Below are positions 11,096 to 25,537 of a DNA stretch of 25,537 nucleotides, in pieces. A program made the position numbers and the translations under genes. The DNA comes from a virus, in the IMG/VR virus record IMGVR_UViG_3300042462_000571, positions 1-25,537 of that record, one strand, 5' to 3'. Numbering within the stretch: the stretch's first letter is position 1; each line of letters starts with the position of its first letter. The notes beneath the pieces are model-generated. The model saw only the letters and a program-made list of their open reading frames with translations. It had not been told where the DNA came from and made no database searches.

Positions 11096-12004
11096 GTGGC
11101 AACAGGTAATTACGGAACTATAAGAAGTGCTGATGTCAGTCCAGATGATGTTGAAATCATCTTGAATTATACACCATCAAGAGATGAAACAAATAATTTT
11201 GTATTAACAAAATTAAATGCAAGTCAAATTTTGAGACCATACTTCCATAACAATCAAACAGGTGGAAACGCTAATGTTGAGGTATTAGGTGGTTTATATA
11301 ACCTACAATTACCGGCAGACAGATTTAACCAACTTGGTATTTATACACTTTATATAAGACCTGCTGAAATTAGAACTAGAATAACTGATTGTGGTATTTT
11401 ATCGGCTCTTCCGAATGTGAAAGGAATTGTTATTGACATAAACAATGTTCCATCACAATACCGTAATAAGTTTATAAATCAAGGTTTAGTGGGATTCAGA
11501 GTTGAGTATCTGAATCCTGATGGGTCGAAAATACCTAATTTTTTTAGAATTGTTACTTCCTCATTTTATTGTGAACCAGTGATTGAAAATTTAACAAACA
11601 CATCTCAGAAGGCAATCAGATACAGATATGTGGAAACCTCATCAAATTTAATGTTTTGTACTCTATCACCATCTTCATCTCCTACTAATAAACCAAACGC
11701 AACACCTTTCATTGGACAACCAGATCAAAACATAATAATTACTAATACCTTTTTCAACCCCACCACAGTTGAGGTTGAAATTGTTGATCAGGATATTTCC
11801 ACACTTGCAATTGCACTTTATGGTAATCAAACTAAGTCGATGGACGATGGAATTTATACAATCTATGACTCTAACAATAACATTTACAAACAATACAATT
11901 TATATGAAATTAGGGGTCAATTTAATGATCTTCTTTATGAAGTGAGACAAGATAGGGGATCTAATATTGATTTCAGTAAAAACTTTACAAATATTACAGG
12001 ATAA
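11096..12004 (+). CDS. Virion structural protein, unassigned (302 aa)
   Basis: No family recognised. The start is GTG at 11096 (ATGNYGTIRSADVSPDDVEI follows the initiator), the second GTG start in a row in this operon. The N-terminal half has a regular beta pattern (LGIYTLYIRPAEIRTRITDC, then VKGIVIDINNVP), and residues about 130-180 read as a sheet-rich core (VGFRVEYLNPDGSKIPNFFR). The C-terminal 80 residues include TKSMDDGIYTIYDSNNNIYK and a charged end. There is no membrane segment or catalytic motif. It ends in a TAATG overlap with the 1004-residue gene, so the two proteins are likely produced in coupled amounts and may bind each other. A baseplate component is the likeliest role, from context. 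Confidence 0.65.
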   Translation: MATGNYGTIRSADVSPDDVEIILNYTPSRDETNNFVLTKLNASQILRPYFHNNQTGGNANVEVLGGLYNLQLPADRFNQLGIYTLYIRPAEIRTRITDCGILSALPNVKGIVIDINNVPSQYRNKFINQGLVGFRVEYLNPDGSKIPNFFRIVTSSFYCEPVIENLTNTSQKAIRYRYVETSSNLMFCTLSPSSSPTNKPNATPFIGQPDQNIIITNTFFNPTTVEVEIVDQDISTLAIALYGNQTKSMDDGIYTIYDSNNNIYKQYNLYEIRGQFNDLLYEVRQDRGSNIDFSKNFTNITG

Positions 12005-15000
12005 TGGCGTTGACAACTTATAAATGTCCTCCACAACCAGCGGCAGGATCAGGAACATTCTCGAACAATCTAGTTGGGTTACAATTAGTTGATGGGGGAG
12101 GACTGACCCAAGCCAATTTTCAATTTACAACCAACATAACTCAAAAACAGAATAGAAACTTTATAATTGGTTCGTTCTCAGATCCCATTTCATTGAGGTC
12201 TATGAATCTTGAAAACGTCGAAGAGACTAGGATGATCTTGGCAAAAAATTATAAAGTTTACCCGAATTATGATTTGTCAGAAATTACAAACATTACGATG
12301 TTTGGTTCACTTGTCAAAAGAATATCAGTTTCGGTTGAAAAGATTATTAATTATTTCCCAGCGGCATTAGAATCTAAAAATTTATCGTCAAGTTTTTTGA
12401 CTACAGAAACGGCATCCAACATATCATTTGATCCAGTAGAAAATGAAACTTATTTGGAAATACCAATTACCGCACTACAAAATCCGTTTGGTATCGATTT
12501 TACAACTAATGCAACTAGAAACCTTTCATTAAGGGAAAATCCTGTCTCGGGTCTTAGGAATTTTACAACTCAGAATTTGAAATATTCTTTGTTTATTTTT
12601 GACCAAGAATATAGAGTGGTTGATTACGTACAATTCCAAGATGGAGACACAAGTCTTAAGTTATATGTGAATGGAAATCCATTTAGCGGTCAAAGTATAA
12701 GTTATGATAATTTTATTGTTAGACCCCAAGATTTGTATGTGAACAAAGTGTTCAGTGAGGATTTTGATACTGTAGAAAATTTTTTATTAAATAGGACTGT
12801 AGTTCCAAAGTATTCTTCAAATTTTACAGTACCAATAGAAACCGAGGCCGGAACATATGTTTATAGTGACAAAATTATAACATTTCCACTCAATGGTATT
12901 TGGAACCTCGACATATTTACAGTAAAATTTACTAATTATCTTAATGATTTAAATTCAGTTGCAATCAATTTAGATGAGTATAAAACTAATTTAATTGTTA
13001 GATTTTTGACTGCAGAAGCAATCAAAGAATTTGACACTCCTGATCAAAAAATACAGAAGGTTCTACAAATCTATGGTAGAAGTTTCGATGAAACCAAACA
13101 ATTTATTGGGGCATTGGCCAATATGACTTCAGTTCATTACAACGTACAAAATGATATACCATCACAACTACTTAAAAATTTGGCACAAACCCTAGGATGG
13201 ACAATTAATATTTCACCAATCACAAATGACCAATTATTAAACTCGGTTTTTATAAATGGATCCAATCAATTTACTGGTTTACCACAAGGACAAACTCCGG
13301 AAGAATTGAACTATCAATTTTATAGAAACCTAATTATGAATTCCGCATTCCTGTTTAAATCAAAAGGGACTAGAAAATCAATAGAAACTTTATTAAGAAT
13401 GGTAGGAGCACCAGAAGCAATTACTGAGTTTAATGAACATGTTTATTTGGCCGATCAGAAAGTTAACATGAGTCAGTTTGATTCACAGTTTATAAATTTG
13501 AGTGGGGGAACCTGGGTTCAAAATTTACCAGTTTTAGAGATTGGAAATATCTTTTCTATTTACGGTGTACAATATACAGGATACACTACAGCACAAATTA
13601 TTCAAAATGTAACAACAACCTTAATAGACTATCCGGTGGATATAGATGGATTCCCAAGTATGCCACTTGAAACCGAAAGTTTCTTTTTTCAAATTGGAGG
13701 AGGATGGTTCGAATCTACACCACAACATAGAATGCCTGAAGAGGTAGACTTAACAAATAGTGTTTTCACGGGAAGTAATCCAAATTATCAAACACAACTT
13801 TTACCTTTCAACTATGGTCAAGAATATCTAGATAGATACCGTCAATTTCCATTTATGGATTTGGGATTTACTCTTACAAAAGAAATAGATAATAATAAAA
13901 GTTGGACCCCAACAGAAATTGGACAAAGAAATTCATCTGATGCTGGTTTCAATGCATATTACCAAGTTCAAAACGAAAAGTTTGTACTAAATGTAAAAAA
14001 CGTAGATCTTTTTATGAATCCGGGTCAAGGACTTTTATATGATGTATGGACTATGTCTAGATCATATAATTACCCCATACCAGAACAGGGATTATTTTAT
14101 CAGGAACCAACTTTTTGTAATCCATACCCTAACATTACTTATCCTATAATTGGAGGTATAGACTGGACAGTAATTGATCCAAAACCCCAACAAAAAACGT
14201 TTTTCGAATTTGCCCAAACATTTTGGAAAAATATGATCAATGTTAGAAGTCGAATGTATTCTAATGATGGTAAGACAAGTGGATACCCAACTCTATCCTC
14301 AATATACTGGAAGTATTTAGAATCGGAATATGCGATCAACGTAAAAAATGATAATTTCACATACAAGTCTTTGATTGAATATGTTGATGGTATGGGAGAC
14401 TATTGGATTAGACTTGTTGAACAAATGATTCCTGCAACAACAATCTGGGAAACTGGAGTTAGATATGAAAATTCAATATTCCATAGACAAAAGTTTATAT
14501 GGAGAAGACAACGAGGATGTCAATTAATACCTATTGAGTGTAAACCTTGTAAGTTAATAAATCAAATATTCAGTTATGACTGTCCGGTTTTATTTACCGA
14601 AATTGGGTTGTATCCTTGGAACAATTCACCAAATATTTTGTCATTTGGTGCATTATTAGGACAAACTTTATCTAATTACGGAACTCAAAATGGAATAGAT
14701 TTATTTAATGACTGTAATATATCTACTCTTCAAACACAATGGTATGTTGATGTTAGACTTAACGGTGTTCCGATCATTGTTTATGAGTTTTTCAATGGAG
14801 TTGGATATTCTAATCCCACATTAAGTGTTCCAACATCACAGGACTGGTTGGATGGTCTTAACACTGGACTTACAAATTTAATTGACTTCGGTTTAGGATT
14901 TAATATAGACACTTCAAATAATATTCTTACAATTTTTAATAATAATTGTTTACCTGATGACGTACAATACAATTTCGAATTGAACGTAGGTATAAACTTC

Positions 15001-15018
15001 GATATTTTATGTAATTAA
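12004..15018 (+). CDS. Large baseplate protein with tail-protein-I / gp7-like region
   Basis: 1004 residues. Residues about 330-490 contain a helical region resembling phage tail protein I (P2 gpI), the family to which the core of T4 wedge protein gp7 is related: an IPSQLLKNLAQTLGW helix near 385-399, then FLFKSKGTRKSIETLLRMVG near 449-468 and ITEFNEHVYL near 473-482. The KGT followed by a small helix and an acidic-aromatic EF/EW pair is the recognisable part of that family. The flanking N- and C-terminal regions are beta-rich and specific to this protein. A Cys-rich strip (CQLIPIECKPCKLI, near 839-852) precedes a C-terminal domain. The protein is far longer than P2 gpI and near T4 gp7 size (1032 residues). 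It is joined on both sides by TAATG overlaps. The assignment is moderate: motif-based, supported by the upstream J/gp6-like gene. Confidence 0.65.
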   Translation: MALTTYKCPPQPAAGSGTFSNNLVGLQLVDGGGLTQANFQFTTNITQKQNRNFIIGSFSDPISLRSMNLENVEETRMILAKNYKVYPNYDLSEITNITMFGSLVKRISVSVEKIINYFPAALESKNLSSSFLTTETASNISFDPVENETYLEIPITALQNPFGIDFTTNATRNLSLRENPVSGLRNFTTQNLKYSLFIFDQEYRVVDYVQFQDGDTSLKLYVNGNPFSGQSISYDNFIVRPQDLYVNKVFSEDFDTVENFLLNRTVVPKYSSNFTVPIETEAGTYVYSDKIITFPLNGIWNLDIFTVKFTNYLNDLNSVAINLDEYKTNLIVRFLTAEAIKEFDTPDQKIQKVLQIYGRSFDETKQFIGALANMTSVHYNVQNDIPSQLLKNLAQTLGWTINISPITNDQLLNSVFINGSNQFTGLPQGQTPEELNYQFYRNLIMNSAFLFKSKGTRKSIETLLRMVGAPEAITEFNEHVYLADQKVNMSQFDSQFINLSGGTWVQNLPVLEIGNIFSIYGVQYTGYTTAQIIQNVTTTLIDYPVDIDGFPSMPLETESFFFQIGGGWFESTPQHRMPEEVDLTNSVFTGSNPNYQTQLLPFNYGQEYLDRYRQFPFMDLGFTLTKEIDNNKSWTPTEIGQRNSSDAGFNAYYQVQNEKFVLNVKNVDLFMNPGQGLLYDVWTMSRSYNYPIPEQGLFYQEPTFCNPYPNITYPIIGGIDWTVIDPKPQQKTFFEFAQTFWKNMINVRSRMYSNDGKTSGYPTLSSIYWKYLESEYAINVKNDNFTYKSLIEYVDGMGDYWIRLVEQMIPATTIWETGVRYENSIFHRQKFIWRRQRGCQLIPIECKPCKLINQIFSYDCPVLFTEIGLYPWNNSPNILSFGALLGQTLSNYGTQNGIDLFNDCNISTLQTQWYVDVRLNGVPIIVYEFFNGVGYSNPTLSVPTSQDWLDGLNTGLTNLIDFGLGFNIDTSNNILTIFNNNCLPDDVQYNFELNVGINFDILCN

Positions 15019-17981
15019 TGAGTTGCGGTGCTATTATACCTTCGTATTCAATAACCGGAGATTGTTCAAATACTAACTCTGGAGGTATTTCTATAAACAT
15101 AACTGGAGGTACAGCACCTTATACTGTTTTTGAAATTTCATCTTCAGGACTACTACCCACTTCTGCGGCTACTACATACTATGAATTCTCTGGGTTGTCA
15201 GGTGGATCGTATGTATTACAAATACAAGATTCTTGTTCAGCAATCACTTCTTATTATGTTTCATTCGATATATCAACAGGTACGACTGTAGATATTTTAT
15301 CTTATTCTAACACCGTTTGTGGTCCTGGTGGAGGGGGATCTCTTCAGGTCCAACTTCCAGTAATTTATGGAGGTTGCGAGTATTATCTATATGAAGTCAC
15401 TAACGGATTTATAACTAGTGCATTTACTTCATCGAACACTCAAACCTTTTCAAACCTTGGTGTTGGAAATTATTATGTAATTGCAGATAATTCGGGAGGT
15501 TGCACTGGATCAAGTGCAAATGTGATAATTATGTCGTCTACAACACTGGATTTTGGTCTATACATCGTAGACGATGCAAGTTGTATACCATTAGCGGGTT
15601 CTGGTAAAGTTTTTGTAACTGGAGTAACTGGAACACCTCCTATTTCTTATTTGTGGTCAAATGGACAAACTGGTTCTACGGCAACTGGATTGACTGCAGG
15701 GTATTATACTGTTACAGTCTCCGACAGTAATAGTTGTTCACTTACAAGTGGTTTCACAATCACTAATATTCCACCAGTTGGTGTTACCCCAATCACATAT
15801 GTAACAGGATCAACTTGTTTCAATAGTGATGGTGCTGTAGAAGTTATTGTTACTGGGGGGACTGCACCTTACTTTTTCTCAGGATCTAATGGTGATACAC
15901 AAATCACATTTAGTAACTCTTATATTTTTGAAAATTTACCGTCTGGAGTTTTTAACGTGATTGTAACTGATAGCGGTCTTTGTACTTCATTTGGTTCAGT
16001 CAATTTACTTACACCAAATGGATTTTCAATTGCATCAATTACGTCAACAAATTCAACCTGTAATAACAATGGTACTATAAACATTGTTGTAAATACCGGA
16101 AGTCCGGGTGCAACCTTTCTATATACACTCTATGACAGTTCAGGAAATACTGTTACAACAGTTACAACTGGAACAATTGTTAATTTTACTAATTTACCAT
16201 CAGACACGTATGTCTATACTATTGATAACAGTGGATGTCTATTCACTGGAACAACAACTATTAATAATACTAGTTTATATTCGATATCGGCATCTACCAC
16301 AGGAACAACTTGTGGTTTAAATAATGGTAAAGTTGTAATAACTGCATCTTCAGGAGGTACGTTACCATATACTTACCAAATTAATGGTAATCCAACCCAA
16401 CCAACAGGTTTATTTAACAACCTATCAAGTGGAATCTATACGGCTACCGTAACTGATGCAAATGGTTGTACTCAAACTCAAAATTTTTTAATCACACCTT
16501 CTTCCCAATTATTTTTTCTCACAAGTACAGTTCCATGCGTTGTAGGTAATGATGGTGAAATTTCAACCTTTATAACATCAGGAACACCACCATTTACTTA
16601 TAACTGGAGTGCAAATGTTGGTCCTCAAACAGGACCAGTTGTTACAGGACTTACAGTTGGAACTTATTTAATAGAAATAACAGATGCAGATGGATGTGTG
16701 TCAAAAAGGACTGTAACCTTGGGGGGAACTAATTTGGTGACTGGTTATCAAATATTTACACTTAGTGATAGTGTATTCGTAAATTCTGGAATTTCCGGTA
16801 AAAGGGGAATTCCGCAAATGTATTATGAAGGATTTTCGGATCTAACATATAATGACTATGGATGTGTTGTCAATTCTGCTGATTTTATATTAGAGACAAT
16901 AGTAAATGGAATTGCAAAACAAACAATATTTTACAGATCTTCAGGGATTTATGATTATCCGAATGATATTCAGTGGTCAAATGCTGTTACAGATCAATTA
17001 TTAAGTTATCCAGACATTGGAAATGTATCTATAGATTTGCTAAAAAACAAAATAACTATAAGTAATTTTTGTGACAAACTTGACAAAAGTTGTAAACAAT
17101 ACGATTACAATACATTACAAGATGCAAAAGTAATAATTAACTTATTAATTGATTACGACATATCATGTATTGAATGTGATATCCCACCACCAACACAATG
17201 TTGTCCACAAACTTATGATTTACCACTGAATAAACTTTCCACAATAATCGATGGAGTTTCTATGACCGCAGTGACTACAGGGGATGTGTCTAAAATAACT
17301 CCAATTAATGATTTTTTACCGGCTTGTTTTTCTGATGAAGCAAATACTGGTGATTTAGTGGCTTTGGGTTATAATAATGGTCCTTACACTTATACACTAA
17401 ATTTTGATACACCGATTAATAACTTAAAGTTAAGGTTAATCAATTATAGTTCTTCAGTTGATTCTTTAGGTAATATAGTTCAACAAGAAATATTGAATTT
17501 TACTACTAATTCAGGAACACCAAGTTTAACTGTATGTCAAGGTTGTTGTTACACAATAGAAGGAAATCAATTCAAAGCATTCCCAACGGACACAAGTTGT
17601 ATTTCGGAAGATGGTGTACATACTGAAGGAAGTGCGGTGATCACAATCGAGTCAATAACAAACTTCACTTCAATAACCATAACGGGATCTTCAAATACAA
17701 CTTCACTCAATGGAACTTTTATAGATCTTTGTAGTTTTGATTTTGAACCAACACCCACACCTACCCCAACACCAGTTAGTGGTTGTTCCCAATATTGGGT
17801 TTCGAACTCATCCTCAGATGTAAATGCTCGAATAACATTTACACCTTGCTGTGGTGAAAGTAAAACTTCACCTTATATGTTAGTAGGTGGTACTAGTGCA
17901 TCAATTTGTTCATCAACCCCAATATTAGTGACATCGGGAAGTGCTTCCATAGTTTCCGCTGGGTCTTGCCCAAGTTGTTAA
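15018..17981 (+). CDS. Tail adhesin with SprB-like repeats
   Basis: 987 residues, probable long tail fibre or host-binding protein. Residues about 8-572 are seven tandem SprB-like repeats of 75-85 residues. Each reads roughly: Cys entry, N-x-G-x-[IV] strand, TGGTAPY-type turn, a strand with a [WY]-S/N-x-G pattern, [FG]-x-NLxxG-x-Y-x-[VI] and a closing D-x-x-[GS]-C. SprB repeats are known from Bacteroidota gliding adhesins. Residues about 573-720 form a second domain with NAVTDQLLSYPDIGNVSIDL and paired Cys (SCIEC). Residues 724-905 are a third Cys-rich beta domain starting CCPQTYDLP. A PTPTPTPTP linker (911-919) leads to a terminal Cys module (923-987) shared with two other genes here. It has no signal peptide, as expected for a virion protein assembled in the cytoplasm. 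ATG at 15018 overlaps the previous stop. Receptor binding is inferred. Confidence 0.8.
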   Translation: MSCGAIIPSYSITGDCSNTNSGGISINITGGTAPYTVFEISSSGLLPTSAATTYYEFSGLSGGSYVLQIQDSCSAITSYYVSFDISTGTTVDILSYSNTVCGPGGGGSLQVQLPVIYGGCEYYLYEVTNGFITSAFTSSNTQTFSNLGVGNYYVIADNSGGCTGSSANVIIMSSTTLDFGLYIVDDASCIPLAGSGKVFVTGVTGTPPISYLWSNGQTGSTATGLTAGYYTVTVSDSNSCSLTSGFTITNIPPVGVTPITYVTGSTCFNSDGAVEVIVTGGTAPYFFSGSNGDTQITFSNSYIFENLPSGVFNVIVTDSGLCTSFGSVNLLTPNGFSIASITSTNSTCNNNGTINIVVNTGSPGATFLYTLYDSSGNTVTTVTTGTIVNFTNLPSDTYVYTIDNSGCLFTGTTTINNTSLYSISASTTGTTCGLNNGKVVITASSGGTLPYTYQINGNPTQPTGLFNNLSSGIYTATVTDANGCTQTQNFLITPSSQLFFLTSTVPCVVGNDGEISTFITSGTPPFTYNWSANVGPQTGPVVTGLTVGTYLIEITDADGCVSKRTVTLGGTNLVTGYQIFTLSDSVFVNSGISGKRGIPQMYYEGFSDLTYNDYGCVVNSADFILETIVNGIAKQTIFYRSSGIYDYPNDIQWSNAVTDQLLSYPDIGNVSIDLLKNKITISNFCDKLDKSCKQYDYNTLQDAKVIINLLIDYDISCIECDIPPPTQCCPQTYDLPLNKLSTIIDGVSMTAVTTGDVSKITPINDFLPACFSDEANTGDLVALGYNNGPYTYTLNFDTPINNLKLRLINYSSSVDSLGNIVQQEILNFTTNSGTPSLTVCQGCCYTIEGNQFKAFPTDTSCISEDGVHTEGSAVITIESITNFTSITITGSSNTTSLNGTFIDLCSFDFEPTPTPTPTPVSGCSQYWVSNSSSDVNARITFTPCCGESKTSPYMLVGGTSASICSSTPILVTSGSASIVSAGSCPSC
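15040..16735 (+). repeat. Seven SprB-like protein repeats
   Basis: Coding array of about seven diverged units of 75-85 codons. Recurring markers are TGGTAPY / SGGTLPY / SGTPPFTY turns and G-x-Y-x-[VI]-x-[VI]-x-D closures (GYYTVTVSDSNSC, GIYTATVTDANGC, GTYLIEITDADGC). The units differ widely at DNA level, so the array looks old, with no sign of recent duplication. Confidence 0.75.
17748..17774 (+). repeat. Pro-Thr linker
   Basis: Nine codons alternating Pro and Thr with mixed synonymous codons (cca/aca/ccc/cct/acc). It separates the third domain of the 987-residue adhesin from its terminal Cys module and probably acts as an extended, stiff spacer. Confidence 0.85.
17784..17978 (+). repeat. 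Shared Cys module, copy ending the 987-residue adhesin
   Basis: Residues 923-987. CSQYWVSNSSSDVNARITF leads to TPCC, then ASICSS, and a terminal GSCPSC. It aligns end to end with the module in the 681-residue adhesin (CRSYQITNESS, YPCC, SVCSS, GDCPTC). The four Cys positions and the closing CPxC are conserved while most other residues differ. Confidence 0.6.
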
Positions 17982-18021
17982 ATTTAATATACTTTTGAAA
18001 AAAAGAAAATATATTTAATTT
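17980..18021. other. AT-only imperfect hairpin between adhesin and glycosyltransferase genes
   Basis: The 41-nt gap consists of two 16-nt arms (17980-17995 and 18006-18021) that are complementary at about 14 positions, around an A-rich loop. With nearly all A-T pairs the stem is weak. It could be a processing or attenuation site ahead of the glycosyltransferase gene, or chance in AT-rich DNA. Confidence 0.25.
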
Positions 18022-18022
18022 A

Positions 18023-19015
18023 ATGCAAAAAATTCAATTTGTTTCAGCACAACCAGATGTTCCATACTTTCATTGGCAGACTAAATTGTACGTTTCAAAT
18101 TTTTTAGAATTGGGAATTGATCCTTGTAATATTCATGTAATTTTTGGTCTGACAAATGGACAAGATAAACCATCGGAAGAATCAAAAAAATTATGTAATT
18201 TTGGAATTAATGTTCATTATTATGTTGATAACAGAATTAATAAATCTTACATACCAAGTATAAAACCTTATTTGATTTCACAATGGTTATGGGAAAATCC
18301 GGAACTGGGTGAATTGTTTTTTTTACATGATGCGGATATAATTTTTAGAAAATTACCTAATTTTGAATCACTATTAAATGATAATATAAATTATCTTTCG
18401 GATACTATAAATTATATAGGGTTTGATTATATACAAACTTGTTGTGAAAAATATGAAGGGGCACATCCGAACCAAGAAAAAAATTCACTTTTGAATGAAA
18501 TGTCCAAAATTATTCAAATTGATCCTGATTTAATAAAACAAAACCAATTGAATTCTGGTGGTGGACAATATCTTTTGAAAAATACAAATTATGATTTGTG
18601 GACTAAAATTTATGTGGATTGTGTTCCACTTTATAAACAAATGCTCAATTATAATAGAAGAAACCCAATTAGAGGTGGTGAAATACAGTTTTGGACTGCG
18701 GAAATGTGGTCTTTGTTATGGAATCTCTGGAGGTCTGGTTATGAAACTAGAGTTACACCTGAATTAGATTTTTCTTGGGCAACAGACGATATAAAAACCT
18801 ATGAATCAAAACCCATACTTCACATGGCTGGAGTTACTGAGGACATTAGAACTACTAAGTTTTATAAAGGAGGTTTCATTCACGAAGACCCAATCAAATT
18901 ATTAGTTGAGAACCAAAACTATTTTGATTATGTGGATAAAAATAGTGCAACTTTAAAATATATTGATTTGATTAGAAATTTTATCCAAAAATACAATAAC
19001 GAATTATTTATATAG
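18023..19015 (+). CDS. GT-A-fold glycosyltransferase
   Basis: 330 residues. Likely transfers a sugar from a nucleotide-sugar donor, in the cytoplasm. The N-terminus IQFVSAQPDVPYFHWQTKLY resembles the opening of GT-A enzymes of the hydroxyproline-arabinosyltransferase type, where a Trp-containing helix follows strand 1. FFLHDADIIF at residues 99-108 carries the DXD motif (D103, D105) that binds metal and the sugar nucleotide. NSGGGQYLL (177-185) and the acidic, aromatic segment E220 to W233 (with AEMW) sit where acceptor-site and catalytic residues are expected. HMAG (267-270) supplies a late His, typical of a metal ligand. No signal peptide or membrane helix is present. The gene lies between two Thr/Pro/Ser-rich adhesin genes, 41 nt after one and 12 nt before the other, suggesting it modifies those proteins. 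Alternative roles are modification of host surface glycans or of phage DNA bases. The fold call is fairly good; the acceptor is inferred. Confidence 0.7.
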   Translation: MQKIQFVSAQPDVPYFHWQTKLYVSNFLELGIDPCNIHVIFGLTNGQDKPSEESKKLCNFGINVHYYVDNRINKSYIPSIKPYLISQWLWENPELGELFFLHDADIIFRKLPNFESLLNDNINYLSDTINYIGFDYIQTCCEKYEGAHPNQEKNSLLNEMSKIIQIDPDLIKQNQLNSGGGQYLLKNTNYDLWTKIYVDCVPLYKQMLNYNRRNPIRGGEIQFWTAEMWSLLWNLWRSGYETRVTPELDFSWATDDIKTYESKPILHMAGVTEDIRTTKFYKGGFIHEDPIKLLVENQNYFDYVDKNSATLKYIDLIRNFIQKYNNELFI

Positions 19016-19027
19016 AACATATTATCA

Positions 19028-21073
19028 ATGGCAACACTTTTCAAAGTAGAAAATACCGGAACTACAATTTATTCTAATTTTTTATTTGTAGATGGTAATG
19101 GAAATATAAAGACATTTGACATTTTACCTAACGTTGAGTATTATGTTAACGCAAATTCCATTTCATTAACTCCCGGTATTAGTATCATAAATTTAGGACT
19201 TGACGATACAAGATATTGTTTTGTGAGTTGTTGCGGTTCCCACACTTTTAGTTTTAATGGAAATTTTAATTCAGTCGCATTTTCAAACTATTCGGTTGGA
19301 GAAGTTCTTAATTTTAATGTTTTAATATCTTCTTTAAATCCATCCGAATATAAAAGTGGATGTTATGAACTTGTAAGTTCGGGAAGTTCGGATTCATATG
19401 CGTGTGGTATAACTGGTTACGATGAATTTTCAATTATAAATTTCGATAATGGATCTTTTTATAATTGTGAATCGTGTCAAGTTTATTCAGATTGTTGTAG
19501 ATCCTATCAAATAACAAATGAATCATCAGTAACCACAGCGTCTGTTTATATTTATCCATGTTGTGATGAACCCCAGGGACCAAAAATTACCCTTCCCCCA
19601 CAAACCTCTATATCGGTTTGTTCATCAAGGGGTGTCGATACAATTGCAGGAACAATATTGGTATTAGACTCTGGAGATTGTCCAACTTGTTCGACAGCAA
19701 TTACAACAACACAACTTATTACCACCACAACAACCTATCAACCTCAAAATAATATAATATCCCCTAGAAACGAGTGTGATGTAATTACATTATTTCCAAT
19801 GGAAGTTGAATGTTTTGTAATTAATCCAACAAGTCCAACATCTTTTGATGGGGCTATTTCATTAGGTATTACAGGAGGAACCCCACCTTATGAAATACTA
19901 TGGGAAACAGGGGCTTTAAGTCAGGCAATTACAAACCTTGGTCCAGGAATATATTCGGCAACTGTGATAGATTCTTACGGTGATTTTACCGCAACAACCG
20001 CATGTAGACTAAGAACAATAGAACCAATTACAACTACAACAACAACTTTATCACCATATCCTCAATATGATGATATTTGTTTGTCAATTATAAAATCCGA
20101 TAAAAATGGTAGTTTTGTTGAATATTATACTTTCGAATTCCAAGGATTTGAAAATTACCACCCACTCTGGACTGAAAGTGGAAACACCTATAGTATAATA
20201 TGGAATATTAATCAATGGGAAGTTTCTGGGTGGACCATGGGTCAAATTGTGAATATTGATCCGGCTGAACCACCAATCGTAGGATGGCAAATTCTTGGAA
20301 GTTCTGGTCCTGTTGTTGTAAATCAGGTTATAGCAAATAATAACGATTGTCTAATAATTAAAAAACCTCTTTTCAGATATACTACAGATGACGCAACTTG
20401 TCAATGTGACGGTAATATAAGTATTATTCCTTTTGGAGGTTTTCCACCTTATCAATATTCTATTGATGGGGGCATAACTTTTTCTAATTTTCCTTTTTTT
20501 ACTAACTTGTGTGGTGGACAATATATCACAGTATTAAATGATTCTTCAGGATTTACAAACACACAAGTTATTAATTTAAATCAATTAAATCAAATACAAA
20601 ACTATATATTAACTCTTTCATATACTGGACTTTCGTTTGAAGTTAAAATAAATCCACCTTTACCTTCGGGATGTACTATAAACTTTGATTTGGTACACAC
20701 TAATTCATTTACTGTTGGCCCAACCTATTCGGCTGCAACATATTTGAATACGGTAACGTTAAATGTTGATGGTAATCCTGTAGGGTTTGACACACCAATA
20801 AATATAATAAACTACCCACCAGTTCCTCTACAATTCCCATGTCAATCATTGAATAGTTATACAACAAATAAAACTTACACATGGAGTAATTTAACAATGG
20901 GTGGACCATCAATTTCAGGGCCAGCAACGACTATAACCGGAACAATAACAGATGCAATATCACCTGTACTACCAACACCACAATGTTTTTACGTTGATAA
21001 TTATTATCAGGTGTATTTGATTAACCCAAGTATTGAATGCGATTGTAGTACAGTTGAAGCACAAAATAGTTAA
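19028..21073 (+). CDS. Cys- and Thr-rich tail adhesin with SprB-like repeats
   Basis: 681 residues, likely a second host-contact protein. Residues 1-65 are a short beta domain (MATLFKVENTGTTIYSNFLF). Residues about 66-155 are a Cys-rich domain with CC pairs. The shared Cys module runs 156-221 (CRSYQITNESS, YIYPCC, ISVCSS, CPTC). A poly-Thr linker (226-236) follows, then a SprB-like unit (261-329: GITGGTPPYEILWE, GIYSATVIDSYGD). A second Thr linker is at 335-340, then an unassigned aromatic domain (341-450). A second SprB-like unit (454-517: GGFPPYQYSIDGG) precedes an unassigned C-terminal domain ending CDCSTVEAQNS. The domain order is a mosaic of parts also present in the 987-residue adhesin and in the - strand gene. 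No signal peptide or transmembrane helix. It starts 12 nt after the glycosyltransferase stop, so both are likely on one transcript. Confidence 0.75.
   Translation: MATLFKVENTGTTIYSNFLFVDGNGNIKTFDILPNVEYYVNANSISLTPGISIINLGLDDTRYCFVSCCGSHTFSFNGNFNSVAFSNYSVGEVLNFNVLISSLNPSEYKSGCYELVSSGSSDSYACGITGYDEFSIINFDNGSFYNCESCQVYSDCCRSYQITNESSVTTASVYIYPCCDEPQGPKITLPPQTSISVCSSRGVDTIAGTILVLDSGDCPTCSTAITTTQLITTTTTYQPQNNIISPRNECDVITLFPMEVECFVINPTSPTSFDGAISLGITGGTPPYEILWETGALSQAITNLGPGIYSATVIDSYGDFTATTACRLRTIEPITTTTTTLSPYPQYDDICLSIIKSDKNGSFVEYYTFEFQGFENYHPLWTESGNTYSIIWNINQWEVSGWTMGQIVNIDPAEPPIVGWQILGSSGPVVVNQVIANNNDCLIIKKPLFRYTTDDATCQCDGNISIIPFGGFPPYQYSIDGGITFSNFPFFTNLCGGQYITVLNDSSGFTNTQVINLNQLNQIQNYILTLSYTGLSFEVKINPPLPSGCTINFDLVHTNSFTVGPTYSAATYLNTVTLNVDGNPVGFDTPINIINYPPVPLQFPCQSLNSYTTNKTYTWSNLTMGGPSISGPATTITGTITDAISPVLPTPQCFYVDNYYQVYLINPSIECDCSTVEAQNS
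19493..19690 (+). repeat. Shared Cys module, copy in the 681-residue adhesin
   Basis: About 66 residues following the plan C-x(2-5)-[YF]-x-[VI]-x-N-x-S, a [VI]-[TY]-[FY]-x-P-CC strand end, [IV]-C-S-S, and a closing C-P-x-C. Matching copies lie at 17784-17978 (+ strand) and, in more diverged form, twice on the - strand (24705-24908 and 24908-25116). Confidence 0.6.
19703..19735 (+). repeat. Poly-Thr linker 1 of the 681-residue adhesin
   Basis: Codons for TTTQLITTTTT, made of aca/acc repeats. It separates the Cys module from the first SprB-like unit and is a candidate O-glycosylation target, given the neighbouring glycosyltransferase. Confidence 0.75.
20030..20047 (+). repeat. Poly-Thr linker 2 of the 681-residue adhesin
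   Basis: Six Thr codons (aca/act) directly after the first SprB-like unit, followed by LSPYPQYDD. It marks a domain boundary. Confidence 0.7.
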
Positions 21074-21092: not shown

Positions 21093-23627
21093 ATGGCATA
21101 TATAATTAAAAATACTTCAGGGTTAATCAACACTAGAGTCACTGATACAGGTAGACAAAAAATGTCACAAGGAAATTTTAACGTTGCATATTTCCAACTT
21201 GGAGATTCTGAGGTTTCATATGACAAACACAATTCAAATTATAATCAGTTCAATAGTTTTGTCCAATTACCCCCATTTGGAAGTCAAAATAGTGGTGGTT
21301 ATCCAAAATCAAATAAACAAAATGTGAAGTATCCATATTATGTTGATGGTAACACAGGAAATACATATGGAATACCTTTTATGGATTCATCAATCGAATC
21401 TGTTTATAATAGTGCACCACTAAGAGGTTTTTTTACCGGAAACACTACCGCAACTACAATTAGTTGGAGTGCATTTACAAACGACTATTATGTTGTATCG
21501 GCAAATTATACAATTGATTTATCTCTATTAAATGGTACTAATGAAATTGATTTAATATATGATCCATGTAACCCGACGAATGTAAGAACTCCAAGAGTAG
21601 GTGATTTTATAACAATTTATTACGATGGGTTTGGGTGTACTAATTGTAATTGTAGTAATTTACCAACACCAACACCCACAAGTTCCAATCAATCTACCCT
21701 AACCCCCACCCCAACACCATCTGTAAGTACAGGAACAATTAATTGTGCCAGCCCAACACCAACCCCTACACCCACTAGAACAGAGTGTTTAACACCAACA
21801 CCATCAAGACAATGTCCTCCACCACCAGAATCGGTTTGTTTATCAAGGGTGTTTAGTTGTTACCCAATATTGACTTATCGGATTATTGCAGTTTGTGAAA
21901 ACAAAATCACTTTAGACAGACCAACACCGAATTTCATGGGACTAGCACCAAACTGTGAGGCGAGAGTGATAATTTATCCTCCATCCATGACGGATCAATA
22001 TGATAGTCTTACACCGAGTCCTCACTGGTATTCTGATGTGATAAATTATGAATCACTTTGTGAACTTGACCAACTTGAAGTTAAAATTTGGAACATGAAT
22101 ATTCCATGGACCGAAAGTCCGGCAGGATTAAATTCTAATTTCTTTTTGGATTACAACAATTTCGGATCAGTTGATTATATTGGTAGTAAAGAATATTTTG
22201 GTTACTCAACAAGTGAGGGTCAATCATTTTATGTGAGTTCTATTCTCAGTGCTGAAACTACTGATACATATTTTTATAATTCATTTGATGATATTGTAAA
22301 AGTCCAACCAGAAGAACAAAAAGCAATAGCAATTATTCATTATACAAACCAAACTATTGATTTGTTTTATGGGGAGAAATTTGCTGCAGAACCATTCGAT
22401 AGTACAAACCCCGGAGCAACTGGACAAGCAAGAAACTTCAGATTACATATTCCGTGGTTGATGTGGCATAAAAATCCTGAATGTTGTTTTGGTCAAACAT
22501 TTTGGATAGATCCTCCAGGATTTGATGGATTAAATTTAGCGGAACCACATTATATGCAATCAACACCTAATCAAGATATGAATTATCCTGGTTTGAGATA
22601 TTATGTTTTGTGGGACACATTTAGAAATAAAGATGGTTTCCCAAGTAGAATAGGGAAAGTATTTCCTGATAGTCAAACTATTGTAATAGATGATGAAGAA
22701 ATAGTCGCAGCATTAAGTTATAAATCAAACAGAAACTGGACACTACCTGCACCTCAAGTTTCATTGATCGAACCAAATTCCTGTGGATCGGAAAGTTCTA
22801 CTGGGGTGGGAGTTATTTCTGGGGCAAATGAAACGATGTACATTACTTACAGATTATCAAATGATTTTGAATTTACAAATTCACTACATTGTAATTATTA
22901 TATACCAATAGTTGGTAACAGTAATGTTTGTGTTCCAGACACAAGTAAGGATGTTGCAATCAGATTTGGAGGGGAATTTAATTGTTTAGTTGTACCAGGA
23001 TTTAATCCTACAACTACAACAACAACACATAGTCCAGTAACTACGACTACTACTATCTATCACCCAACCACCACGACAACAACTCAGTGTCCTTTAGTAT
23101 GTGACGTACCAAATGGATTTTACGCAACTGAATTCCAAGTTCTGGCACAAAAAGTTGTAACAGGAGAAAGACCTGATCCGACAAAATGGAAAATCATTGA
23201 TTTCACAAATAATTTAAGTGGTGAAACTATTAATGGATATGTTACACAACAATCATTAACAGCAAATACATTTGTTATTACCGATACGATATATAATAAT
23301 GCACCAACTTATAATTTGGATAATTTTGTTCCATTAGTTCCCCTCGGGACAACAACTCCCCAGTTGAACTTTGGTGATGAATACTATTTTTACGGATCAT
23401 TACAAACAGACATTGAGGCTAGTATCTATGAAATGAGATATAAAATTAACTTAAGTTACAATGAGTTCCAAACAACAACAAATCCAACATGGACTCCAGG
23501 TACAAATTCTTATATAACTGAAATCGCGTTGTTGGATCGAAACAAAGATGTATTGGTTGTTTCCAAAATGCAGTCCCCAGTTCTTCGACAAGGAATCCAA
23601 CAATTTTTGATCAAGTTTGATTTTTAA
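21093..23627 (+). CDS. Large tail protein with Pro-Thr and poly-Thr linkers
   Basis: 844 residues, probable tail fibre or neck/tail-tip protein. Its N-terminal domain (about 1-185) starts MAYIIKNTSGLINTRVTDTG and continues with a QLGDSEVSYD strand; no signal peptide, consistent with virion attachment. Residues 191-239 are a Pro-Thr-rich linker interrupted by Cys segments. Residues about 240-635 form a large domain containing CLSRVFSC, IIAVCENKITLDRP and WLMWHKNPECCFG; I do not recognise its family. Residues 640-664 are a Thr linker in three TTTTT runs. Residues 670-844 are a C-terminal domain ending in TEIALLDRNKDVLVVSKMQS, then PVLRQGIQQFLIKFDF, a pattern like that closing many phage tail-side proteins. 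It shares linkers but not the Cys module with its neighbours. It is the last structural gene before the resolvase. Confidence 0.7.
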   Translation: MAYIIKNTSGLINTRVTDTGRQKMSQGNFNVAYFQLGDSEVSYDKHNSNYNQFNSFVQLPPFGSQNSGGYPKSNKQNVKYPYYVDGNTGNTYGIPFMDSSIESVYNSAPLRGFFTGNTTATTISWSAFTNDYYVVSANYTIDLSLLNGTNEIDLIYDPCNPTNVRTPRVGDFITIYYDGFGCTNCNCSNLPTPTPTSSNQSTLTPTPTPSVSTGTINCASPTPTPTPTRTECLTPTPSRQCPPPPESVCLSRVFSCYPILTYRIIAVCENKITLDRPTPNFMGLAPNCEARVIIYPPSMTDQYDSLTPSPHWYSDVINYESLCELDQLEVKIWNMNIPWTESPAGLNSNFFLDYNNFGSVDYIGSKEYFGYSTSEGQSFYVSSILSAETTDTYFYNSFDDIVKVQPEEQKAIAIIHYTNQTIDLFYGEKFAAEPFDSTNPGATGQARNFRLHIPWLMWHKNPECCFGQTFWIDPPGFDGLNLAEPHYMQSTPNQDMNYPGLRYYVLWDTFRNKDGFPSRIGKVFPDSQTIVIDDEEIVAALSYKSNRNWTLPAPQVSLIEPNSCGSESSTGVGVISGANETMYITYRLSNDFEFTNSLHCNYYIPIVGNSNVCVPDTSKDVAIRFGGEFNCLVVPGFNPTTTTTTHSPVTTTTTIYHPTTTTTTQCPLVCDVPNGFYATEFQVLAQKVVTGERPDPTKWKIIDFTNNLSGETINGYVTQQSLTANTFVITDTIYNNAPTYNLDNFVPLVPLGTTTPQLNFGDEYYFYGSLQTDIEASIYEMRYKINLSYNEFQTTTNPTWTPGTNSYITEIALLDRNKDVLVVSKMQSPVLRQGIQQFLIKFDF
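21663..21810 (+). repeat. Interrupted Pro-Thr linker
   Basis: Three Pro-Thr runs (PTPTPT, LTPTPTPS, SPTPTPTPTR) and a short TPTPS, with Cys between them (NCAS, TEC, RQC). At DNA level they are imperfect ccaacacc/cctacaccc repeats, prone to slippage and recombination. Confidence 0.8.
23010..23084 (+). repeat. Poly-Thr linker
   Basis: Three Thr runs (six, five and six Thr) separated by HSPV and IYHP, directly after the large central domain of the 844-residue protein and before a Cys-flanked C-terminal domain. Confidence 0.8.
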
Positions 23628-23676: not shown

Positions 23677-24276
23677 ATGAATAGAATTAAAAACACACCC
23701 AAAGTTCTTGGACTTGATATCTCAACCAAAACTATTGGTTGGGCTTTATTTGATATGCAATCACAACAATTACTAGAGTTAACTCATATATCACCAAGAC
23801 CAAAATTAAACACAGAAGATAAATTACATGAACTACTTTTAAAATCCGAAGTATTTGCAAGTAAATTGGAAACATATAAAAATTTGGGAATAATGAGAGT
23901 CATTATAGAAGAACCTTTATTAAACTCTAACAATGTTTATACAATTCAAACATTGTTAAGATTCAACAGTTTCTTATTTAAAGAAATATATAATATATTA
24001 GGTATAGTTCCTGAATTTATATCGACTTATAATGCTAGAAAATACGCATTTCCGGAATTAGTCCAGGAAAATGATAAAAAGAAATTTGTTTTGTTTGGAG
24101 GTCTGCCCAAAGACATCGATAAAAAAATGATTATATGGGAAAAAGTTGCAAAAAAAGAACCCCAAATCACTTGGCAGTTCACTAAAAATAATACTTTGAA
24201 AAAAGAAAACTTTGATCAAACAGATGCGTACACTTGTGTTTTAGGGTATATGAGATTTAAAGAAATCTGGAAATAA
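23677..24276 (+). CDS. RuvC-like Holliday junction resolvase / nuclease
   Basis: 199 residues, the normal size for RuvC-type enzymes. It should cut four-way or other branched DNA, resolving recombination or replication intermediates before packaging, the job done in T4 by the unrelated endonuclease VII. The RNase H-like fold markers are in order: VLGLDISTKTIGWAL with D14, MRVIIEEP with E78/E79, and FDQTDAYTCVLGY with D180 and D183, giving the D-E-D-D metal-binding set of the RuvC family. The middle (RFNSFLFKEIYNILG) matches the helix lying over the active site. ATG at 23677 is the only start ahead of the first catalytic Asp other than internal codons. It stands apart functionally from the tail genes and is followed at once by a terminator, so it closes the + strand transcript. 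The call is confident at superfamily level; the true substrate is not visible. Confidence 0.8.
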   Translation: MNRIKNTPKVLGLDISTKTIGWALFDMQSQQLLELTHISPRPKLNTEDKLHELLLKSEVFASKLETYKNLGIMRVIIEEPLLNSNNVYTIQTLLRFNSFLFKEIYNILGIVPEFISTYNARKYAFPELVQENDKKKFVLFGGLPKDIDKKMIIWEKVAKKEPQITWQFTKNNTLKKENFDQTDAYTCVLGYMRFKEIWK

Positions 24277-24305: not shown

Positions 24306-24329
24306 ATCGTCTTTTTAGACGATTTTTTT
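24306..24329 (+). terminator. Intrinsic terminator after the RuvC-like gene
   Basis: A perfect 7-bp stem ATCGTCT / AGACGAT (24306-24312 with 24317-24323) with loop TTTT, followed by T residues to 24329. This is a standard Rho-independent terminator for the + strand operon. Its T-tract abuts the - strand gene's stop codon (24328-24330). Read on the - strand, the hairpin is followed by ATTTC and not a T-run, so termination there would be weaker. Confidence 0.85.
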
Positions 24330-25537
24330 ATGGACAAACAATCACATTTATAATAGTTCCATTCACGTCAACCTGGACTGCATATATTACAACTCCAGGA
24401 TTTGACACACTAGAAATGGCAATCCAGTTGTTTGCTTGTCCACTCACAGGTAAACCAGTTGAATTATTAATCAATGAAGTTGATGTTGTTGGAATTGGCA
24501 TTGAGGTTGCCCAATCACCACCACTAAATGATGAGTAATTTGAACAAGCCAAATCTGGTGCTGTAAACCAACTTGCACCTCCAGTCCATAAAAATGAAAC
24601 ACTACTTGGGGTTGGAGTTAAAGTTTTGGTTATAGAAGGCGTTGGTGTTGGAGTTCTTGTTGGTGTTGGCGTAAGATAATTAGTTGGTGTTGGTGTTGGG
24701 GTATTACATAATAATCCAGTTACAGAAACAAAAACATTAGAATATTGATCAACAATAGGCGTGCTTATTGAACAAATTATTATACCAGATCCACCATTAA
24801 CTGTTCCTGAAATCTCAAGACCAGTATTACAATCAATATAAGTAAAATTTCCTTCAGTTATTGGGTCATTATTTTGAACATAAAACTGAAAGCAATTGTT
24901 TGAGTAACAGCAATTATCAATAATGTCAATTGTACAGTTTCCACTACTCAATGTTGGAGTTGTTTTTGAACAGATTATAATGACTTCATTAATTGTTGTA
25001 CCAAACTCTGCAGGGGTTCTTGTTACTACAGTATTTGACAAACAATCAGTATATGTGATATTTGAAGTTTCACCTTCGTCGTTAAAATCAAACAGTTTAA
25101 ATTGGTTACATGGACATATACTACTAGGTGTTGGAGTAGGCGTTGAAGTACTAACTGGTGTCTTAGTTATTGGAATACACTCCAAACATTTTCCCTGGCT
25201 TGATGGTCCATATTCTGTTGTAATTAACACATTATCGATTCCACTTACGTAATCTACAATTTCAGTAAAAATGAAACATGAACTCACACCATTTATAAAA
25301 CCACCATAAACGTCACCAAGTATCAAAGGATATCCATTAGAATCGAATATTGACTGGCTTGTAAAGAAATCCGCACCAGAAAAACAGTCTTCAAACTTTT
25401 TACTATTTGCACATGTTATCCTACCGTCAACATTGTTGAATTTGGCAACACCACCAAAATTACACGGTCTTGTTTGTTCTAATGAAACAGTTGGGGTAAC
25501 AGTAATGGTAGGTGTTGGTGTAGGTGTAAAACCAGTT
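24328..25537 (-). CDS. Pro-Thr-linked Cys-rich adhesin-like protein (5' partial)
   Basis: Convergent to the tail operon. The frame stays open to the window end, so the N-terminus is missing; the TTG at 25324-25326 is an internal codon. From the edge inwards it reads a TPTPTPT linker, a Cys domain (CNFGGVAKFNN, ITCANSKKFEDCFSG), a segment with CFIFTEIVDYVSGIDN ending CLECI, then a STPTPTP linker. Two copies of the Cys module follow (CPCNQFKLFDF at about 25116-24908, and CFQFYVQNNDP at about 24890-24705). A long interrupted Pro-Thr linker comes next, and a C-terminal domain (WTGGASWFTAPDLACSNYSS) that ends NVIVCP. The domain vocabulary matches the + strand adhesins, so it is likely another tail fibre or an alternative receptor-binding protein. 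It has its own transcript, ending at the shared terminator region. Confidence 0.75.
   Translation of the reverse strand, partial: TGFTPTPTPTITVTPTVSLEQTRPCNFGGVAKFNNVDGRITCANSKKFEDCFSGADFFTSQSIFDSNGYPLILGDVYGGFINGVSSCFIFTEIVDYVSGIDNVLITTEYGPSSQGKCLECIPITKTPVSTSTPTPTPSSICPCNQFKLFDFNDEGETSNITYTDCLSNTVVTRTPAEFGTTINEVIIICSKTTPTLSSGNCTIDIIDNCCYSNNCFQFYVQNNDPITEGNFTYIDCNTGLEISGTVNGGSGIIICSISTPIVDQYSNVFVSVTGLLCNTPTPTPTNYLTPTPTRTPTPTPSITKTLTPTPSSVSFLWTGGASWFTAPDLACSNYSSFSGGDWATSMPIPTTSTSLINNSTGLPVSGQANNWIAISSVSNPGVVIYAVQVDVNGTIINVIVCP
24605..24712 (-). repeat. Interrupted Pro-Thr linker, - strand
   Basis: Coding for PTPTPT, LTPTPTRTPTPTPS and TLTPTPSS runs. On the + strand it appears as ggtgttggtgttgg-type repeats. 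It separates the second Cys module from the C-terminal domain. Confidence 0.8.
24705..25116 (-). repeat. Two tandem copies of the shared Cys module
   Basis: Copy 1 (about 25116-24908): CNQFKLFDFND, NITYTDC, VIIICSKTTP, SGNCTIDII. Copy 2 (about 24890-24705): CFQFYVQNND, NFTYIDC, GIIICSISTP, closing GLLC. Both keep the C / [FI]-T-Y-x-D-C / I-I-I-C-S order. They are closer to each other than to the + strand copies, which points to a tandem duplication in this gene. Confidence 0.6.
25126..25165 (-). repeat. Short Pro-Thr linker, - strand
   Basis: Codes for TPVSTSTPTPTPSS, directly ahead of the first Cys module copy. Confidence 0.75.
25490..25530 (-). repeat. Pro-Thr linker at the window edge, - strand
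   Basis: Codes for TPTPTPTITVTPT, showing that at least one further domain of the adhesin lies beyond the window. Confidence 0.7.

Follow-up and report, generated by a model that had tools for sequence, protein, structure and literature searches.

A GT-A-fold enzyme family that tracks poly-threonine tracts in phage particle proteins: a predicted virion glycosylation system

Why would a phage keep a gene for a putative glycosyltransferase among the genes of its own adhesins? The question is raised by IMG/VR virus record IMGVR_UViG_3300042462_000571, a 25.5-kb record of a freshwater phage, which was analyzed over its whole stretch of 25,537 nucleotides (nt), hereafter the window. A baseplate J-like gene (75-1658) and a large tail gene (12004-15018) are followed by a series of adhesin-like genes, in which the enzyme gene lies at 18023-19015. 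Because relatives of this enzyme, found across many unrelated phages, and tracts of consecutive threonines (poly-Thr) in particle proteins appear and disappear together, glycosylation of the particle by the enzyme is very probable. Its predicted activity is the O-glycosylation of poly-Thr tracts in virion proteins that share its late operon; in the window these would be the adhesins encoded at 19028-21073 and 21093-23627. The features concerned are listed below, with lengths in amino acids (aa), PT for alternating proline and threonine, and T≥5 for a run of at least five threonines.

18023..19015, + strand: glycosyltransferase by fold (GT-A), 330 aa, ATG start, phrog_4417
18329..18337, + strand: DXD site D-A-D, enzyme residues 103-105 (metal/nucleotide-sugar); D103 and D105 invariant in alignments
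18821..18871, + strand: C-terminal motif HMAG...KG of the enzyme (H267, G270, K282, G283), invariant in relatives
15018..17981, + strand: SprB-repeat adhesin, 987 aa, with a PT linker and no T≥5 run; upstream neighbor, substrate status uncertain
17748..17774, + strand: PTPTPTPTP linker, residues 911-919 of the 15018-17981 protein
19028..21073, + strand: SprB-repeat adhesin, 681 aa, with poly-Thr linkers; likely substrate
19721..19735, + strand: TTTTT tract, residues 232-236 of the 19028-21073 adhesin
20030..20047, + strand: TTTTTT tract, residues 335-340 of the 19028-21073 adhesin
21093..23627, + strand: putative tail adhesin, 844 aa, with PT tracts and a poly-Thr linker; likely substrate
23010..23084, + strand: poly-Thr linker TTTTTT-HSPV-TTTTT-IYHP-TTTTTT, residues 640-664 of the 844-aa protein; absent in homologues of enzyme-less phages
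21663..21803, + strand: PT/TP tracts of the 844-aa protein; retained in homologues of enzyme-less phages

The first-pass annotation had placed a GT-A enzyme with D103 and D105 41 nt after an adhesin gene bearing PTPTPTPTP and 12 nt before a poly-Thr-linked one, and the open reading frames, the gaps (17982-18022 and 19016-19027) and the residues all confirmed this arrangement. In Pfam profile searches, SprB repeats were detected in the products of 15018-17981 (E 1.2e-19) and 19028-21073 (E 3.8e-10), so that the name adhesin is fair for these two proteins. The product of 21093-23627 carries three poly-Thr tracts together with its PT tracts. Compared with shuffled proteins, T≥5 runs numbered 2 observed against 0.012 expected in 19028-21073, and 3 observed against 0.008 expected in 21093-23627. 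Runs of three PT units, expected at most 0.004 times per shuffled protein, were observed once in 15018-17981 and three times in 21093-23627. ACN codons are mixed within the tracts, which are hence not a simple DNA repeat.

Close relatives of the enzyme were drawn from 254 IMG/VR stretches, those kept being 60-67% identical, and in most of them the gene order was variable fiber, enzyme, adhesin, and a protein of the 844-aa type with PT and poly-Thr tracts. A tblastn search at E ≤ 1e-3 matched 74 phage records. Distant relatives, with 29-37% identity to the window enzyme, occurred in phages and prophages of Lactobacillaceae, Enterococcus, Staphylococcus, Lactococcus, bacilli and Chryseobacterium, and among the records listed they were mostly annotated as 'hypothetical protein'. 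The enzyme sits after structural genes in 38 non-redundant distant loci from Firmicutes and Chryseobacterium, and in Firmicutes phages its gene usually lies within ~150 nt downstream of a major tail or major capsid gene. An annotated major tail protein gene stands immediately before it in phiFL2A, 1706 and Semele; in SA2 it comes just after the major tail gene, and in bIL285 after the major head protein gene. Based on profile matches, 20 of 36 upstream proteins belong to the major tail family phrog_88, and most others to major head or other major tail families.

Poly-Thr was present in 32 of these 36 upstream proteins, mostly as C-terminal tails such as PYPTTTTTTTTTSA; the tail protein of Lactococcus phage 1706 has the C-terminus TTTTTTTTTTHHD. 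The loci of the four upstream proteins without poly-Thr (L087, L088, L174 and L180) encode a poly-Thr protein of tail-tube size 3-5 genes downstream. In three loci the enzyme is preceded by a separate protein of 115-122 aa, composed of a small domain and long Thr runs, and for two of these three proteins the Pfam mucin model gave weak scores that did not reach the cut-off. The distant relatives paired with poly-Thr tails mostly have no PT repeats.

Three of the distant loci deserve separate description. In Staphylococcus phage VB-SauS-SA2 (L084:5117-5930), the major tail protein ends ...DDSTTTTTTTTP at CCC TAA inside a Thr run, and the +1 frame of the gene runs on as KPTTTTTTSSTTTTTTTT... for ~75 residues with more Thr runs. 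This looks like a programmed +1 frameshift that would add a long Thr-rich extension to some tail subunits; the tail protein of SPP1 is known for a +1 frameshift. In Enterococcus phage phiFL2A (L083:5001-5910), the enzyme gene is interrupted (a 248-aa frame plus a remnant annotated gp49) and the poly-Thr of the tail protein is retained. In a metagenome-assembled genome of Arachidicoccus (L207:5995-10797), a gene whose product begins MSFPYYKQLNAMDCGPTCLRMVAKY and looks like a C39-peptidase ABC exporter stands close to a distant member of the family, and with such a neighbor the family may be active outside phage particles too.

Does poly-Thr go with the enzyme when a single protein family is compared across loci? 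For the tail-protein family we collected 80 loci regardless of the enzyme; some were short, and a distant enzyme copy could escape there. The enzyme was in the locus for 15/15 proteins with a poly-Thr tail and absent for 64/65 proteins without one (Fisher P 2.4e-15, kinship ignored). In the exceptional locus, L329, an 83-aa protein that combines an fn3 domain with Thr runs is encoded 3 nt before the enzyme gene. When the tail-protein bodies were placed on a tree, each of nine changes involved both traits at once, and starred branches force at least three of them. An unrelated structural protein family, the capsid control, was represented by 76 loci, from which those with less than 1.5 kb downstream were set aside. 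In all 18 loci with poly-Thr the enzyme followed at a distance of 56-69 nt; among the 47 loci without poly-Thr, 46 lacked it. In the remaining locus, L544 (IMGVR_UViG_2728369672_000003), a Thr tail can be read out of frame at the end of the capsid gene and the enzyme gene is broken across two frames; tail and enzyme thus appear to have decayed together.

The same pattern was found in the clade of the window, for which 70 loci sharing the tail gene 12004-15018 were assembled and read where ~9 kb or more lay downstream. All 32 clade loci with the enzyme have a T≥5 gene; L437 and L461 carry the enzyme farther along the record, and with these two included T≥5 genes accompany the enzyme in all 34. 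Six loci, falling into two groups by similarity and gene order (L420, L462, L469; L440, L441, L444), contain neither the enzyme nor any seven-Thr tract in the whole record, and no T≥5 genes in the stretches read. Both of these lineages encode a homologue of the 844-aa protein (56-64% identical over aligned residues) in which the poly-Thr linker at 640-664 is missing and the PT linkers are retained. Left out of this count were three more enzyme-less records (L426, L427, L447), which stop short of the position where the gene would be expected. Since the enzyme-less lineages lose the poly-Thr linker and keep the PT linkers, we assign poly-Thr, not PT, as the partner of the enzyme on comparative grounds. 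PT repeats had been considered first as the partner and were dropped once the enzyme-less loci were read. The first-pass annotation had proposed that the enzyme sugars the linkers of the phage's own virion proteins: comparative genomics strongly favors this for poly-Thr, and the part concerning PT linkers falls, as these are retained without the enzyme. Likewise, the co-occurrence it had expected in related phages was found between enzyme and poly-Thr, and PT linkers do not track the enzyme.

What kind of enzyme is encoded at 18023-19015? It is a near-full-length match to phrog_4417 (E 7.7e-66, residues 5-319 on profile positions 2-290 of 293), a family annotated as 'unknown function'. An AlphaFold2 model built from a 35-sequence alignment (A5) had a mean pLDDT of 94.1 and adopts a GT-A fold, in agreement with the GT-A assignment made at first pass. 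Searches with Foldseek and a second structural aligner gave 813 of 999 chains at Z ≥ 8, with GT-A enzymes in all of the top rows; the best solved structures were glycogenin (Z 15.5), UGGT (Z 14.4), LgtC (Z 13.8) and Streptococcus GlyE (Z 13.4). D103 and D105 fall within FFLHDADIIF and, together with H267, G270, K282 and G283, are invariant among 17 (A1) and 35 (A5) aligned relatives, as would fit the needs of a working metal-dependent GT-A enzyme. A match to ribosomal mS42 (E 0.0025) was dropped as spurious. The suggestion that the opening of the enzyme resembles hydroxyproline-arabinosyltransferases was not borne out: there was no such match in Pfam at E ≤ 1 and none among the structural matches listed, although absence from the latter is not exclusion.

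With GT8/GT24-type GT-A enzymes (glycogenin, LgtC, GlyE, UGGT) the enzyme shares the fold (Z 13.4-15.5), the DXD and an HxxG...K-like motif; it differs from them in having only ~10% identity, no complete GT8 motif and no Pfam GT8 match. The signature motif of GT8 is HxxGxxKPW, and HMAG...KG resembles its HxxG...K. The full signature is not present in the enzyme: HMAG at 267-270 fits HxxG, but the invariant lysine is residue 282 and is followed by glycine. Because the exact signature is missing, we describe the enzyme as GT8-like in predicted fold and do not assign it to CAZy GT8. A glycosyltransferase linked to the major capsid protein of PBCV-1 (2p72) was also matched structurally (E 2e-5). 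It is likewise a virus-encoded GT-A enzyme tied to virion-protein glycosylation; it comes from an algal virus, and its likeness to the window enzyme is a weak structural match only.

Several results weigh against glycosylation of poly-Thr by this enzyme. No glycosyltransferase family was found for it at E ≤ 1 in Pfam-A or NCBIfam, and single-sequence and profile searches of the PDB matched no characterized glycosyltransferase at the sequence level. The P values of the co-occurrence controls disregard shared ancestry, and the 35 window-clade records are fragments, for which absence of the enzyme is provisional. A reverse scan for the poly-Thr DNA pattern found the enzyme in 13 of 94 virus loci, within short stretches; poly-Thr therefore does not always depend on a phrog_4417-type enzyme. 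Among the loci with the pattern (L208-L327), the neighbors of enzyme-less ones include a few Glycos_transf_2 (GT2), Glyco_trans_1_4 (GT1-type) and PF11397 glycosyltransferases, as well as dioxygenases of the PhyH/2OG type. Poly-Thr tags may also be substrates of other enzyme families, these neighbors being too scattered for a conclusion.

Other targets of the enzyme were considered. Phage glycosyltransferases that change the serotype of the host are well known according to PMC12619734, and the enzyme might similarly alter a host surface glycan, such as teichoic acid or lipopolysaccharide (LPS), for superinfection exclusion, its pairing with poly-Thr being incidental. We regard this as very unlikely: the gene is part of late structural operons, its presence follows that of poly-Thr tails in two structural protein families unrelated to each other, and modification of the host surface does not predict co-loss of the Thr tract. 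Glycosylation of phage DNA, for which phage glycosyltransferases exist (PMC12619734, citing Pyle 2024), is less credible still: in most loci examined the neighbors are structural genes and not nucleotide or DNA-modification genes. More generally, the first-pass annotation had named one distribution as contrary to its proposal, with homologues chiefly next to DNA-modification or LPS genes and in phages without such linkers. The distribution found was a different one.

PT repeats, or proline/hydroxyproline, could be glycosylated instead of poly-Thr, and PT tracts are indeed common in the window and its relatives; yet two enzyme-less lineages retain their PT linkers and the distant relatives pair with poly-Thr tails that are mostly PT-free, which makes this substrate very unlikely. 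Finally, the enzyme and the poly-Thr protein could travel as a mobile cassette for another reason, for example with a different target and poly-Thr as a mere linker. Co-inheritance alone cannot prove contact between enzyme and substrate, and the distance from the enzyme to the poly-Thr gene varies (L087, L088, L174, L180). However, in these same four loci both parts share one phage though other genes intervene, and the tract occurs on a capsid, tail-tube, small or fiber protein, with poly-Thr as the sole common element. We give this explanation little credence, if slightly more than the preceding ones.

The proposed glycosylation of poly-Thr tracts builds on three observations, namely a GT-A fold, conservation of the catalytic-type residues, and the tight coupling by which enzyme and poly-Thr come and go together. 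In the proposed mechanism, a cytoplasmic, metal-dependent GT-A glycosyltransferase, with its partner made from adjacent late genes, would draw a nucleotide sugar from the host and place the sugar on consecutive Thr side chains of the nascent or assembled particle protein. Thr would be the acceptor, and glycosylation would take place before or during assembly. Poly-Thr would serve as a transplantable tag, carried in related phages by the major tail protein, the major capsid protein, a small separate protein or fibers. The C-termini and linkers of such tailed-phage proteins are expected to be exposed on the particle, and the outcome would therefore be a dense, mucin-like sugar brush on its exterior, around tail, capsid or fiber. 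As to benefit, we infer, in line with the first-pass annotation, that the brush would stiffen the linkers and shield them.

We consider it fairly likely, with less confidence than for the activity itself, that these parts form a mobile two-part module, in which a dedicated adjacent glycosyltransferase is combined with a poly-Thr tag that can be grafted to any particle protein, be it capsid, tail tube, fiber or a small decoration-like protein. Phages of Firmicutes and Bacteroidota would acquire or lose the two parts as one. The module would produce a mucin-like coat, probably extended in some phages by a second glycosyltransferase and sulfotransferases. In the locus concerned (L074:9959-17456), a relative of the enzyme stands outside the usual order and the next genes are on the opposite strand. 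They encode two sulfotransferases (Pfam E 1.7e-5 and 5.9e-12), a GT25 enzyme (5.4e-12) and a leucine-rich-repeat protein of 1472 aa in which four Thr runs occur. The sulfotransferases and the GT25 enzyme beside the relative suggest a glycan-extension cluster that would yield an extended, sulfated glycan.

The remainder of the window contains one more PT-bearing gene:

24328..25326, - strand: PT-linked protein; unlikely to be the specific partner of the enzyme

Several adhesins, including this protein and the 15018-17981 product at its C-terminus, seem to share small Cys-containing beta-type repeats (C..Y.v.N.s ... G.C) placed between their PT linkers. Directly after the adhesin genes, 23677-24276 (+ strand) encodes a RuvC-like Holliday junction resolvase (PHROG E 1.8e-4), and a gene of similar size occupies its place in relatives both with and without the enzyme.

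How does this system compare with known virion glycosylation? In mycobacteriophages, capsid and tail tube subunits are reported to carry glycans at their C-termini (Freeman et al, 2023, PMID 37329881, as cited in PMC13313380 and PMC12619734). As summarized there, these phages encode their own glycosyltransferases, as here by fold, and their glycans sit on the same two proteins and at the same end as poly-Thr in relatives of the enzyme. In the window itself the Thr tracts are internal adhesin linkers, whereas the relatives have acceptor-like poly-Thr C-termini on capsid and tail tube. Unlike in mycobacteriophages, the tag here is a Thr run, the hosts belong mainly to Firmicutes and Bacteroidota, and fibers and adhesins are also partners. 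The 74 phage records from the tblastn search at E ≤ 1e-3, which may miss remote kinship of the enzymes, included no mycobacteriophage. Our search of open-licence literature, outside which most subscription journals and preprints lie, found no earlier report of poly-Thr tags or of phrog_4417 as glycosyltransferases. Hence, virion glycosylation as a principle is known from mycobacteriophages, and the novelty appears to lie in the enzyme family, the tag and the host range.

Virion glycosylation has so far been shown for a few actinobacteriophages, mainly some mycobacteriophages. Together, poly-Thr and phrog_4417 would provide a simple sequence signature from which it can be predicted for hundreds of phages infecting lactic acid bacteria, enterococci, staphylococci, bacilli and Bacteroidota, some of them cultivable isolates, and the orphan family phrog_4417 gains a proposed function. 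The findings also suggest that tag and enzyme could serve as a compact pair for the O-glycosylation of proteins in bacteria, and they may bear on how phage particles encounter mucus, proteases and host defenses.

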